Assembly (NCBI GenBank): GCA_938045275.1
Contig: CALIMV010000092.1
Coordinates: 1 to 47,954, forward strand
Length of the DNA stretch: 47,954 nucleotides
Direction: 5' to 3'
Source: an uncultured Granulosicoccaceae bacterium
GTDB taxonomy: Bacteria > Pseudomonadota > Gammaproteobacteria > Granulosicoccales > Granulosicoccaceae
Shown: in pieces, positions 30,046-35,027 of the stretch
Numbering within the stretch: the first letter of the stretch is position 1
Layout of the letters: each line of letters opens with the position of its first letter
Notes under the pieces: model-generated
The model's input: only the letters and a program-made list of their open reading frames with translations
Database searches by the model: none
What the model was told of the DNA's origin: nothing
Translations under genes and position numbers: made by a program

Positions 30046-30261
30046 AATTTACGAAATACGAAAAATCCGAAAATAATGACACTAGATTGCCGGAAACTGC
30101 CTTTTGAATCAAGTCGTCATTTTGGAATCAAAGTACCTATAAAAGTACAATTTAACAATACATTAAGAGCAATAATATTGAGTAATTTCAACTTTGGTTG
30201 ATGAAAATAATTCTTTATTGGAATCTCTGTTTACCCGTTATGAATACAATTGGAGACTACG

Positions 30262-31510
30262 GTGAAAAATTACGTACGAAATTCCTGCGCAGTATTAGCT
30301 ATTGTGCTGACAACAGCTGCAGGCATAGCGACTTCGGGTACTGTCGCGGCGGCTGGGTTAATGATGCCTGCAGGGGCAAATGCCACTGCGCTCACCATCC
30401 GATCGCACCAAGTCAACGTTGTTATTGAGGATGGCTACGCAATAACGCAGGTCGATCAGGTGTTTAGCAACCCCGGAGCCCACGACCTGGAAGCAACGTA
30501 CCGATTTCCGGTGCCAGACAAAGCAGCAGTATCAGAATTCACTGTGTGGATAGATGGGCAGCCTGTTGTAGGCGAGGTATTAAAAAAGGACGAGGCCCGG
30601 AAAGTTTATCAGGAAGAAAAGGCGATCGGTCGTGATGCTGGTATCGCCGAACAAAATAAACACTATAACTTTGAAATAAAAGTATCTCCCGTTCGTGCTG
30701 GTCAAGATACCCGTATACGGAATGAGGCAATACGATGTTCGACTGTTTACCGCTGTGATGGGTAACGGTGCGAATACGCCGCTACTCGAAGCCATGACAG
30801 AGGTATCAAATGGTTTTGCCGTTAGCGTGTCCAACAGTGACGATATTGTGGGTAAGCTGATGGAATTTACCAGCAAGGCAACTCACCAAGCGTTGCATGA
30901 TATTGAACTAAAATTTAAAGGAATACAGGTGTCGAATCTAACACCTGAAGTCACCACCAGTTTGTATCGAGGTGAGCTGTTGACTGTGTTTGGCCACTAT
31001 CACGGAGCAGGTGAGGCTATCGTTTCCTTATCAGGAAAAGTGTCGGGTGAAGATAAGTTGTACAAAACAACATTTGATTTTCCGGATATCAGTCAGCGTA
31101 ATCCGGAAATCAAACGATTGTGGGCGTATGCAAAAACTCAGGATATACATCATATGATTGATTATTTAGGTGATGATTCTGAGTATAAGGATGCCATTAC
31201 AGATATCGCTGTCAACAATGGGCTGGTTACAGAACATACTTCCATGGTTGTCATGCATGACGAACAGTTTGCAGCACGCGGCATTGAGCGCAAGAACAAG
31301 CAGCGCCGCGCAGAGGAGACCGCGGCTCAAAGTGTGCGTTTTTCCCAACCTGTACAAAGTAGCCGAGTGGATGTACAACAACCGGCATTTGGCAACAAGC
31401 CCCGTGCAAATTATTCTGGCGGGAATGGCGGTGGCGCATTTTCCTTCGAGTTTTTACTGCTGCTACCTTTTATTTTACTGGCGGGACTGCGCAGATTAAG
31501 AATCCAGTGA
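30262..31510 (+). pseudogene. VIT/vWA surface protein gene with internal deletion and frame loss
   Basis: The gene starts at GTG 30262 (GGAGA 5 bases before) with a signal peptide, then a VIT domain (NVVIEDGYAITQVDQVFSNP, LEATYRFPVPDKAAVSEFTV, GEVLKKDEARKVYQEEKA, NFEIKVSPVRAGQDTRIR). The usual following region and the vWA domain with its MIDAS motif are absent. A different frame continues at once with the last part of a vWA domain (YDVRLFTAVMGNGANTPLLE, FAVSVSNSDDIVGKLMEF) and the C-terminal part, so roughly 250 or more residues and the frame are lost near 30720. The first frame stops at 30765. The C-terminus GGGAFSFEFLLLLPFILLAG then LRRLR looks like a GlyGly-CTERM-type sorting tail. Intact relatives are secreted or surface proteins of about 650-700 residues. 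Confidence 0.8.
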
Positions 31511-31557: not shown

Positions 31558-33147
31558 CTATTGCACCGGAAAATGCAAATACTCGACATTATTAATACTA
31601 GGTATAGCCCGCAATGCTTCTAAGTCTTCAGCTGCAACCACAGCATCCACCTCTAGTAAGGCAATTGCACTTGGCTGATCGCTGTGTCTGCCAAGGTGTA
31701 AATTTGCGATATTAATGCCTTTGTCTCCGGCTGCTGTGCCAATTGCTCCGATGACACCAGGCGTGTCGTCGTTGGTGAAATACAACATGTGTTCACCAAG
31801 CTCTGACTCCAGTGAGATGCCTTTAACATCAATAACGCGAGGTTTGTTGCCGATCAATGTGCCAGCAACGCTGCGTTGCATTTTTTCAGTTTCAATTTCA
31901 ACCGTAATACGACACTGGTATTCATCTTTGCCATCGTTCTTGGCGTCGACTACGGTGATGTTGCGCTCTCTGGCTATTTCTCTTGCGTTAACCGAATTCA
32001 CAGTGGCGCTATGGTGAATTAATAAAGATTTCAATACTTCGGTGGACAGAGGCTCAGTGTTGTAGCCCGTGACATCCCCCGCGTAGGTTATTGTCAATTT
32101 TTTAATTGGATCGTGGGTCAGTTGTCCAACAAAGGAACCAAGCTGCTCGGCAAGATTTAGATAGGGTTTAAGTTGACGTGCTTCTTCGGCACTGAGGCTA
32201 GGCGCGTTCAATGCATTGGTTATAGCACCAGTTATCAGGTAATTGCTCATCTGTTCGGCTACCTGAACGGCTACCTTTTCCTGAGCTTCGGATGTTGATG
32301 CACCCAGATGAGGAGTGCAAATTACGTTTGGCATACCAAACAGTACATTCTCTTTGGCAGGCTCGACTTCAAAAACATCAAGGGCAGCACCACGCACATG
32401 CCCTGACTCCAGAGCGACTTTCAATGCTAATTCGTCTACCAACCCACCTCTTGCGCAGTTGATGAGCAGACTGCCTTTTTTCATTTTGTTCAACGCGGTT
32501 GCGTTGATGATGTTAGCCGTTTCGTCTGTTTTTGGAACGTGTAGCGAGATGATATCGCTGCGTTCCAGCAGCTCATCTAATTCGAGCTTGGTTACGCCAA
32601 GCTGATCAGCACGTTCACCGGTCAGAAACGGATCGTACGCGAGTACATGCAGCCCGTACCCTAAAGCCTTTTGGGCCACAATTGAACCGATATTTCCTGC
32701 ACCAATAATCCCAAGATGCTTGCCAGTGAGTTCGATACCCATAAACTTAGACTTTTCCCATTTACCAGCATGCGTTGATTGACTGGCTTGCGGGATATGA
32801 CGAGCCAAAGAGAGCATCATAGCCATGGCGTGCTCAGCCGTGGTTATCGCATTGCCAAATGGGGTGTTCATAACGACCACACCGTTGGCTGTGCAGGCCC
32901 TAACATCGATATTGTCAACGCCGATACCGGCTCGACCCACTACCTTGAGTCGTTTCGCTTTTTCCAGCAATTCCGGGGTGACATTGGTTGAAGAGCGCAT
33001 GGCCAAGCCATCGAAATCACCAATTGTGTCCATCAATTCCTCAACAGAGAGTTTTGCAGATTGCACGACTTCGACACCGCGTTCCTCAAAAACACCAACC
33101 GCCAGTGAAGACATGGAATCAGAAATTAATACGCGTGGTTTAGTCAT
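31558..33147 (-). CDS. serA: D-3-phosphoglycerate dehydrogenase SerA
   Basis: First enzyme of serine synthesis, oxidising 3-phosphoglycerate to 3-phosphohydroxypyruvate. The 529 residues match the long form with an intervening domain and a C-terminal ACT domain. Visible motifs are GRAGIGVDNID, the NAD-binding GIIGAGNIGSIVAQKA, the catalytic Arg in LLINCARGGLVDELAL, the Glu in DVFEVEP, and His in TPHLGAST. The ACT domain (FTNDDTPGVIGAIGTAAGDK, INIANLHLGR) at about 455-525 should bind serine for feedback control. It follows serC with a 4-base overlap, so the two are translationally coupled. Confidence 0.96.
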   Translation of the reverse strand: MTKPRVLISDSMSSLAVGVFEERGVEVVQSAKLSVEELMDTIGDFDGLAMRSSTNVTPELLEKAKRLKVVGRAGIGVDNIDVRACTANGVVVMNTPFGNAITTAEHAMAMMLSLARHIPQASQSTHAGKWEKSKFMGIELTGKHLGIIGAGNIGSIVAQKALGYGLHVLAYDPFLTGERADQLGVTKLELDELLERSDIISLHVPKTDETANIINATALNKMKKGSLLINCARGGLVDELALKVALESGHVRGAALDVFEVEPAKENVLFGMPNVICTPHLGASTSEAQEKVAVQVAEQMSNYLITGAITNALNAPSLSAEEARQLKPYLNLAEQLGSFVGQLTHDPIKKLTITYAGDVTGYNTEPLSTEVLKSLLIHHSATVNSVNAREIARERNITVVDAKNDGKDEYQCRITVEIETEKMQRSVAGTLIGNKPRVIDVKGISLESELGEHMLYFTNDDTPGVIGAIGTAAGDKGINIANLHLGRHSDQPSAIALLEVDAVVAAEDLEALRAIPSINNVEYLHFPVQ

Positions 33148-34340
33148 GCTGGTACCTCAGAACTTAGTACAGTGGATTTGAATTGATCATAAGCCCAGTC
33201 AAGCCAGACGGTTAATGCTTCTATGTCGGATGCTTCAACAGTTGCGCCCCCCCAAACACGAAAGCCAGGGGGCGCGCTTCGGTAGTTGGCGATGTCAAAA
33301 GCCACGCCTTCATCAGCCAACCAGCCAATCATGGTTTTTACACCTCGCTGTTGTTCCTCAAGATTCAGAGACTGAAAGGCGTTGTCTGTAATCGTCAGAC
33401 ACATTGAAGTGCTGGAGCGCGTGTTTTCGTTTTCCGCCAGCCAATTCACCCAATCAGTATTCGAAACCCAGGTGTCCATCGCTGTAAAATTGGCGTTAGA
33501 ACGATCATGTAAGCTTGTTAGCCCGCCCAGTTGCTCAGCCCAATCCAATGCGGAATGCAGGTCAGCAACAGCAAGCATGCTGGGTGTATTGATGGTTGCG
33601 CCAGTAAATATGCCTTCTATCAATTCCTGCTTTTTTGTCAGTGAAAAAATCTTAGGCAGAGCTCTTGGTGCTGGTGTATTTTCGAGTCGTTGCACTGCGC
33701 GTGGGCTAAGCGCAAGCATGCCGTGGGCTGCTTCACCGCCCAGTGCTTTTTGCCACGACCAAGTCAGCACATCCACTTTTCTGTAGTCAATCGCCATTGC
33801 ATAGGCGGCCGACGTGGCATCACACATCACTAAACCCTCCCGATCATCAGAAATCCAATCAAGGTTCGGTACGCGCACACCGCTGGTAGTGCCGTTGTAT
33901 ACAAATACGGTATCGTTGTGAGGTGATGCAGTATCCAGGTTTGGCAGTTTCCCGTAATCTGCTTCGTGAATGTTTAAGCCAGGTAGCTCGAGCTTTCCCA
34001 AATCTTTAGCCCAATCCGATGAGAAACTTTCCCACACATAAGCATCCACTGCTTTGGGTCCAAGCATTGACCACATGGCCATCTCGAAAGCACCGGTATC
34101 AGAGGCGGGCACAATACCAAGACGCCAGTCTGACGGTAGACCCAATAATGCAGCTGAGCGGTCTATTGCCGATTTCAAGTGGGATTTGGGATTCGCAGCG
34201 CGATGACTGCGGCCAAGATGTTCAGTATTTAGAGCCGCTATAGACCAGCCAGGGTGTTTCCGACAGGGGCCGGAAGAGAAGCGCGGGTCAATAGGGCGCA
34301 CGAGCGGGCGCGCATTCGCGCCAGATGCGGTAACGTTCAC
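33144..34340 (-). CDS. serC: Phosphoserine aminotransferase SerC
   Basis: Second enzyme of serine synthesis, a PLP-dependent class V aminotransferase. At 398 residues with FSSGPCRKHPGW near the start, the PLP lysine in DVLTWSWQKALGGEAAHGML, and FVYNGTTSGVRVPNLDW, it belongs to the alternative SerC group common in Alphaproteobacteria and methanogens rather than the E. coli type. The start is taken as GTG 34340, which directly follows an inverted repeat; an AGAGG ribosome binding site lies 7 bases before it. Translation is probably controlled by the leader fold listed at 34341-34395. It heads a serC-serA operon, an order opposite to numbering in the pathway. Confidence 0.93.
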   Translation of the reverse strand: MNVTASGANARPLVRPIDPRFSSGPCRKHPGWSIAALNTEHLGRSHRAANPKSHLKSAIDRSAALLGLPSDWRLGIVPASDTGAFEMAMWSMLGPKAVDAYVWESFSSDWAKDLGKLELPGLNIHEADYGKLPNLDTASPHNDTVFVYNGTTSGVRVPNLDWISDDREGLVMCDATSAAYAMAIDYRKVDVLTWSWQKALGGEAAHGMLALSPRAVQRLENTPAPRALPKIFSLTKKQELIEGIFTGATINTPSMLAVADLHSALDWAEQLGGLTSLHDRSNANFTAMDTWVSNTDWVNWLAENENTRSSTSMCLTITDNAFQSLNLEEQQRGVKTMIGWLADEGVAFDIANYRSAPPGFRVWGGATVEASDIEALTVWLDWAYDQFKSTVLSSEVPA

Positions 34341-34395
34341 GGTATAACCTCTAGTTATGGGTGGTTTGCTCCACCAGGCTCGATCAGGTTATACC
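34341..34395 (-). promoter_or_regulatory. Structured serC leader that can hide the ribosome binding site
   Basis: On the minus strand, GGTATAACCT (34395-34386) and AGGTTATACC (34350-34341) form a perfect 10-bp outer stem, and GGTGG/CCACC (34375-34371 with 34364-34360) forms an inner stem with a six-base loop. The two are joined by unpaired stretches of 10 and 9 bases. The AGG of the serC ribosome binding site lies inside the outer stem, whose last base touches the GTG. A TATAAT at 34489-34484 would give a leader of about 135 bases. This suggests ligand- or protein-controlled translation. The serC RNA motif known from Alphaproteobacteria is the natural comparison, but I cannot confirm a match. 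Confidence 0.65.
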
Positions 34396-34625
34396 GCGCA
34401 GGCTTTTGGTGCAAGTATCCGACGAGATAAAGCTGCCATGAACGGTTGACACTAATGCAGCCGTAAGTTCTGCATTGGTTGGCATTATATCTCTTGGTCT
34501 CAAAGCACTATTAATCGAGAAAAGATTAGGCGCTTGGATTCGGTTTTAACAGAATCAATCAGCTAAATTTACGTTCACGTTTTGAAGAAGATTTAACACA
34601 TACAGATTCGGTCCGATCAGATAAT

Positions 34626-35027
34626 TTAATCGGACATAGTGTGCTGTGGTAGGCCATCAGTAATCTCATAGTAGTCACCTTTGAATTTGGTAAAAATATG
34701 ACTAATGGTTTTCAGTTCTGTGGGTGTTTCGAGAGAGCCTGCCATGACCGCTAGCGTATCGGTATTGATTCGTTTCCAGAACAATACCGAACCACAGTGT
34801 TTACAGAAACCGCGCGTTGCATCGTCACTTGCGCAATACCAAGTGAGATGCTCCTCACCGCTGAGCTCAATGCTGTTGTCGTGAATGCGGGTGGCCGCTA
34901 CAAGATGCCCGGTCTGTTTTCGGCACTGTTGGCAGTGGCACATAACAACGTCTCGTAAAAGTTCGGCAATCTTGAAATTTACTTTGCCGCAAAGACAACT
35001 ACCGCTAACAGGATGGTCTGCTTTCAT
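34626..35027 (-). CDS. GFA-family (Mss4-like) zinc protein
   Basis: A 133-residue protein of the GFA family (glutathione-dependent formaldehyde-activating enzyme-like, CENP-V type). Zinc ligands are seen in SCLCGKVNFKI, MCHCQQCRKQTGHLV and GFCKHCGSVLFWKR, the standard three cysteine sets. The start at 35027 is preferred over 35042 because GGAG lies 9 bases before it. Most members are not shown to be true formaldehyde-glutathione synthases, so the activity should not be assumed. It is a single gene between serC and the DEAD-box helicase gene. Confidence 0.88.
   Translation of the reverse strand: MKADHPVSGSCLCGKVNFKIAELLRDVVMCHCQQCRKQTGHLVAATRIHDNSIELSGEEHLTWYCASDDATRGFCKHCGSVLFWKRINTDTLAVMAGSLETPTELKTISHIFTKFKGDYYEITDGLPQHTMSD

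Follow-up and report, generated by a model that had tools for sequence, protein, structure and literature searches.

The serC-serA operon on the minus strand of the window (the whole stretch of 47,954 nt analysed here, from an uncultured Granulosicoccaceae bacterium) raises the question of whether expression of serC is controlled by a structured leader RNA and, if so, by which fold. The initial annotation had proposed a leader of about 135 bases, started by a TATAAT, in which a perfect stem of 10 bp locks up the serC ribosome binding site. Comparison with relatives bears out a structured serC-serA leader covering the ribosome binding site, but the covering helix is the small hairpin P2 rather than the 10-bp stem, and the conserved leader is predicted to be about 39 nt long rather than about 135 (Table 1).

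The serC gene of the window is of the alphaproteobacterial type and scores only 40 bits with TIGR01364, and the serA frame overlaps its 3' end by 4 bases. Among the 27 genomes in the genus of G000 (class Gammaproteobacteria), 13 possess the alphaproteobacterial-type serC and 11 others the E. coli-type serC, with TIGR01364 scores of at least 297 bits that exceed the cut-off in 7 of the 11; the match in G008 consists of two adjacent pieces. Neither type was found in three of the 27 genomes, several of which are incomplete (G003, G007 and G013 lack both), and no genome has both. This either-or distribution within the genus looks like lineage-wise replacement. Elsewhere in the window, two overlapping frames are found on the plus strand at 30250-31510, the first with a VIT domain (PF08487) and the second with a Gly-rich stretch, a hydrophobic tail at its end and no Pfam match; together they are possibly one surface-protein gene that is interrupted or shortened.

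Table 1. Positions of the genes, leader elements and predicted signals of the serC-serA operon in the window.
Feature	Positions	Strand	Remarks
serA, phosphoglycerate dehydrogenase	31558..33147	(-)	TIGR01327 644 bits (cut-off 454); ORF coordinates
serC, alphaproteobacterial-type phosphoserine transaminase	33144..34340	(-)	TIGR01365 511 bits (cut-off 448)
serC start codon GTG	34338..34340	(-)	GTG/ATG 0-5 nt after P2 in 20/20 leaders
10-bp stem	34341..34395	(-)	perfect: GGTATAACCT (34395-34386) pairs with AGGTTATACC (34350-34341), directly before GTG 34340; present, not conserved, without support in 20 leaders
Hairpin P2	34344..34358	(-)	AUAACU 34358-34353, loop AGA 34352-34350, GGUUAU 34349-34344
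Ribosome binding site AGAGG	34348..34352	(-)	assigned by letters and place; last two G in P2 stem
Hairpin P1	34360..34375	(-)	GGUGG 34375-34371, loop AGCAAA 34370-34365, CCACC 34364-34360
Predicted transcription start	34379	(-)	7 nt after -10-like element; G in 20/20 leaders
-10-like TAACCT (TAnnCT in relatives)	34386..34391	(-)	coincides with the six inner bases of the 10-bp stem's 5' arm
-35-like TTGCAC	34409..34414	(-)	17 nt upstream of -10-like element; moderately conserved position in 19 leaders
TATAAT	34484..34489	(-)	not conserved: none of six -10-like hexamers tried at this distance in 7 relatives

Two conserved hairpins before the serC start codon

Leaders were collected from whole-genome loci and genome_contigs with a pattern of partly fixed letters, which matched 16 of the 17 loci L001-L017 and 15 of the 16 loci L050-L065. 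The two loci missed (L004 and L053) begin inside the gene, and every locus of the SerC group with readable upstream sequence was matched. Two distant homologues with 25% identity (L018 and L019) and the 3' part of a gene (L020) were left out, and removal of same-contig copies and of one identical element (L060, the same as L058) left 20 distinct leaders. Although most hairpin letters are fixed in the pattern, it does not force compensation, because each varying strand position varies independently.

In alignments A1 and A2, a nearly invariant block of about 39 bases ends at the start codon. Its identity to seven relatives is 87-95%, and identity further upstream, including the TATAAT region, is 23-44%, which is near random (31-36% for shuffled sequences). 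The conserved leader is predicted to begin at about 34379 and to consist of 5'-GCY, hairpin P1, a short linker and hairpin P2. AGAG of the assigned ribosome binding site is invariant in all 20 leaders. The start codon that follows the leader of L013-L016 shares the reading frame of serC and extends the protein by an N-terminal stretch.

The leaders share this two-hairpin element, and both hairpins contain compensatory changes. All P1 cells are paired (100%); one P1 pair has a double change (G-C to A-U in L003), one varies with G-U and three are invariant. P2 has 95.8% paired cells, its outermost pair being broken in 5 of the 20 leaders, and double changes at three pairs, spread over several separate lineages: C-G to U-A twice, in L052 and in L061, and further A-U to U-A, U-A to C-G and U-A to A-U. 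Taken together, the 11 pairs of P1 and P2 are 97.7% standard, compared with 93.3% after shuffling, and double changes, amounting to 10 cells, occur at four of them (1.4 when shuffled; 2 of 500 shuffles as high), while five never vary. The covariation score is 0.181 versus 0.103 for shuffled alignments (0 of 500 as high), and at most 0.071 when the partners are slid. One of the five measures, the number of further pair types, shows no excess in P1 and P2 (7 versus 6.5 shuffled; 250 of 500 as high). The initial annotation had suggested alignment of serC leaders for compensatory changes as a check on its stem, and it is P1 and P2 that pass this check, whereas the 10-bp stem fails it.

The support for P1 and P2 comes from comparison, because the stability of the fold itself is ordinary: the 42-nt RNA (34379-34338) folds into both hairpins at -9.4 kcal/mol, which is not unusual (z -0.78, with 41 of 200 shuffled sequences equally stable or better). 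When the RNA extends from 34379 as far as 34300, P1 is predicted with a probability of 0.92 and P2 with 0.66. The last two G of AGAGG in the window leader are unpaired with probabilities of 0.14 and 0.02, and in 18 of the 20 leaders they are predicted to be mostly paired across the ensemble; their cover is weaker in L052 and L061 (0.33-0.54 unpaired), and P2 is absent from the minimum fold of L003 and L058. The ordinary fold energy of the 42-nt RNA and the only partial formation of P2 with coding sequence present would fit an unregulated leader, whose hairpins only stabilise the mRNA at its 5' end or keep translation at a low, constant rate. This explanation is nevertheless unlikely, as the P1 loop and the 5' GC remain near-invariant among SerC proteins whose identity falls to about 61% and compensation is kept around the ribosome binding site.

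A promoter-like element and the 10-bp stem

A promoter-like element lies at a fixed distance upstream of the hairpins. TAnnCT has its first T, its A and its last T in 19 of 19 leaders and the fifth C in 18, and the first four bases of the -35-like hexamer are kept as T in 14, T in 10, G in 9 and C in 13 of the same 19 leaders, which exclude L012 (cut off) and the copy L060. The promoter and the start site are predicted from conservation and position only, because a consensus promoter scan of 34300-34640 had no hit, either at the TAACCT site or at TATAAT. With a start at 34379, the RNA would lack the 5' arm of the 10-bp stem, which would then belong to the promoter DNA. A scan for an intrinsic terminator found none. 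Serine attenuation by a leader peptide was also considered and rejected: the 39-nt leader contains no ATG, and the one tiny frame seen by eye further upstream is without serine codons.

The 10-bp stem described in the initial annotation is real as a set of letters. It encloses the hairpin GGTGG-AGCAAA-CCACC, which is P1, between unpaired sides of 10 (34385-34376) and 9 (34359-34351) bases, as claimed, and the letters TATAAT are also present. The 149-nt fold that contains the stem has -44.9 kcal/mol, compared with -36.5 kcal/mol for shuffled sequences (2 of 200 as good), and its z of -2.4 places the stem above chance in this single sequence. In the 20 distinct leaders, the stem has 67.7% paired cells versus 68.1% shuffled (355 of 500 as high) and a covariation of 0.089 versus 0.102 (388 of 500 as high), and the stem was rejected as a functional fold, its pairing and covariation being at the level of shuffles. 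A long duplex at this place, of 13 pairs counting G-U, is found in the window alone among the 20 leaders. The longest duplex has 4-7 pairs in 18 of the remaining 19, of which L012 is cut off upstream, and L002 has one of 11 pairs, counting G-U, elsewhere. Relatives can mostly form the inner six pairs as well, without sign of covariation, which we put down to retention of TAnnCT as a putative promoter element. These pairs occur where TAACCT, the -10-like element, is complementary to AGGTTA, a conserved strand of P2.

Could the long leader nevertheless be the one that matters, with a start at TATAAT, a length of about 135 nt and a 10-bp stem that locks both the ribosome binding site and the GTG, perhaps as an extra layer specific to the window and served by an upstream promoter? 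In its favour, the stem has no mismatch and prevails in RNAs long enough to contain it: those from 34400 or 34479 are predicted to form the long stem instead, with probabilities of 1.0 and 0.99, and the z of the 149-nt fold points the same way. Against it, the relatives show neither covariation nor excess pairing, the 5' arm coincides with the conserved -10-like position, the upstream region is not conserved in seven relatives and TATAAT, which is not at the conserved promoter position, received no hit in the promoter scan. We consider the long leader very improbable. The stem is probably absent from the main serC transcript, because its 5' arm falls on the positionally conserved -10-like element. 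It is a cautionary case, as the 10 perfect pairs, seen in one genome, came about where a promoter element and a conserved strand happen to be complementary.

Distribution of the leader and a proposed mechanism

A covariance model of the leader (R1) was used in scans at E up to 0.001, with stricter filters above 40 genomes, of genus, order, class and phylum samples that overlap. In the genus, 13 of 27 genomes matched: G018 weakly, at 21.2 bits, and the other 12 with no less than 59.7 bits; these 12 are the 13 genomes with the alphaproteobacterial-type serC minus G017, in which the contig begins inside the gene. Matches were found in 17 of 48 genomes of the order (16 strong and the weak G018), in 6 of 229 genomes of the class (G000 and G364 strong, four at no more than 25.5 bits) and in 17 of 398 genomes of the phylum (G000 strong, 16 at no more than 24 bits). 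In all the genomes scanned, matches of at least 57 bits are found only at serC leaders and once per genome, the next best genome match having 25.5 bits, and strong matches precede only the alphaproteobacterial-type serC, mostly in Granulosicoccaceae. In the raw sequence of four weak matches (L132-L135) among those of 20-25.5 bits from the class and phylum, no serC start was seen by eye. Applied to the window and 36 loci, R1 gave 32 matches, copies included, all at 57 bits or more; the matching loci labelled other than Granulosicoccaceae are L058 and L060 (Proteobacteria), L061 (Thiotrichaceae) and L062 (Gammaproteobacteria). In a quick tree of 84 SerC sequences, those with R1 form one branch (20/20, SH-aLRT 100).

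We propose that R1 is a short translational OFF leader of the serC type, divergent from the alphaproteobacterial serC motif (RF00517) and governed by an effector, a reading that we consider likely. We infer that transcription would start at about 34379 and yield an RNA that opens with GCCUGGUGG. The recognition part may consist of P1 and its loop of 6 nt together with the invariant 5' GC, and P2 may serve as the expression platform, which, when formed, would hold part of AGAGG and end 3 nt before the GTG. The effector, which could be a small molecule or else a protein and would be at hand when serine supply is ample, would stabilise P1 stacked on P2 and thereby reduce translation of serC and also, by way of the 4-base overlap, of serA.

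A related explanation, which overlaps with this one, is a protein-binding operator instead of a metabolite riboswitch, in which an RNA-binding protein would recognise the near-invariant P1 and control P2. In favour of such an operator, the sequence of P1 and its loop is short and hardly varies, and the changes in P2 are compensated. A protein was also suggested for the alphaproteobacterial element after seven compounds were without effect, according to Corbino et al. (PMC1273637). We regard this explanation as possible while leaning somewhat against it. For the proposed OFF leader, an RNA of about 42 nt would be easily synthesised and suits the same ligand panel as the serC motif.

Comparison with known serC leaders

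The serC motif was reportedly updated by Greenlee et al. (2018; RNA Biol 15:377). Our literature search, which did not extend to the text of that work, had no description of this leader in Gammaproteobacteria among the matches listed. As characterised in its original report, RF00517 consists of two stems, the second with the ribosome binding site, before serC-serA, with a promoter directly upstream and a start codon no more than 11 nt further on (Corbino et al. 2005, PMC1273637). The same report states that L-serine, L-threonine and five PLP-related compounds had no effect on the element in in-line probing (PMC1273637).

R1 likewise comprises two hairpins upstream of serC-serA, the second holding the ribosome binding site. 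In both, the first loop has 6 nt with CA (mostly CAA), the second hairpin, whose purine-rich loop lies at the ribosome binding site, is closed mostly by C-G then U-G, and the start codon follows within 11 nt, at 3 nt in the window and 0-5 nt in the 20 R1 leaders. The promoter of RF00517 lies directly upstream and is near consensus; R1 fits this by position, with TAnnCT conserved there, and the consensus scan gave no hit. The letters differ: R1 has GGUGG/CCACC in P1, the loop AGCAAA where RF00517 has CCCAAC, 5' GCY instead of GGG, a linker of 1-2 nt and, in all 20 leaders, an AGA triloop at the place of the GNRA tetraloop. R1 does not have the conserved letters of RF00517 (5' GGG, CCC of the first loop, CUG..AGG of the second hairpin) and also differs in sitting in Gammaproteobacteria. 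The likeness to the alphaproteobacterial motif that the initial annotation pointed to holds for the layout and the gene context and fails for the letters.

In searches for known families, no Rfam family matched the window at gathering, RF00517 (35 bits) was found neither there nor in G000, and RF00517 at E up to 10 matched neither 34200-34640 nor any of 16 loci (the window's own and 15 relatives). A model built from 29 RF00517 members (R2) matched 14 of 64 other serC leaders but, with E up to 10, no leader in the 21 loci of R1 type; eight further matches, with E of at least 0.21, lie elsewhere in those loci. R1 found no serC leader in 93 other loci (best 14.1 bits, elsewhere). Of 150 genomes of the phylum, 29 contain RF00517, and none of these is labelled with the class of the window. 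In L168, L169 and L170, the model matched a short part: the first hairpin is of the RF00517 type, with GGG and CCCAAC, and the second was not recognised. The likeness of the second hairpins UAUCUGGAAGGAUA and UAACUAGAGGUUA, together with CA(A) in the first loops, suggests that R1 and RF00517 may share descent.

A third leader type (R3) was found within about 100 bases before serC in the Rhodobacterales group, where one pattern matched 13 loci and two more (L108 and L124) were located after being added by eye, giving 15 (L077, L085, L086, L092, L093, L094, L097, L100, L106, L108, L109, L110, L115, L121 and L124). A model built from 13 of these loci finds all 15, 14 at 70.9 bits or more and L121 at 29.9 bits; it matched none of 372 alphaproteobacterial genomes, a result that is uninformative because none of them is known to carry R3, and four R3 loci had no Rfam match at E up to 1. 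The 15 loci constitute one 15-row SerC branch, and the labels R1, R2, R3 and none require 10 changes on the SerC tree versus 41 when shuffled, L108 and L124 being labelled none in this count. Like R1, R3 is short, near the start codon and followed by the same SerC family, but its letters and layout are different. In its helix S2 (GGGYGA/UCRCCC), one pair exchanges U-A for C-G (7 and 6 of 13) and the rest are invariant, and the variable S1 pair is A-U, C-G, G-C or G-U in 13 of 13 (by eye, with the gap shifted two columns where present). The helices are interleaved and possibly form an H-type pseudoknot.

Similar pairings can be drawn, speculatively, for the other two leaders. In RF00517 the 5' GGG might pair with CCC of the loop; this combination is invariant in 89 of 90 rows and GGG/UCC in one (60 lower-scoring matches from 126 R2-matching genomes plus 30 loci, with at least two records doubled, L069/L171 and L078/L173), and covariation is unjudgeable in these rows because GGG/CCC is invariant. 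In R1 the 5' GC might pair with GC of the P1 loop, as both pairs are possible in 19 of 20 leaders, without support from covariation (G-C in 20 of 20, C-G in 19 of 20 and a third pair, U-A, in 6 of 20). It is a rather doubtful idea that R1, RF00517 and R3 are separate or far-diverged receptors of one serine-pathway signal that serve one SerC family, each a small H-type pseudoknot at the extreme 5' end of its mRNA. If it were true, 5' GCY of R1 would pair with AGC of the loop as GGG would with CCC in RF00517, and R1 would constitute a separate orphan class of riboswitch in Gammaproteobacteria.

The glycine riboswitch likewise precedes serine genes, including serC/serA, in some bacteria, as mentioned in two reports (PMC9481103, PMC3766115), but is a different RNA. 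With RF00517, the comparison is closer: R1 as a shorter and divergent version in another class shows which features are kept, namely two hairpins, CA in the first loop and a covered ribosome binding site, and which are free.
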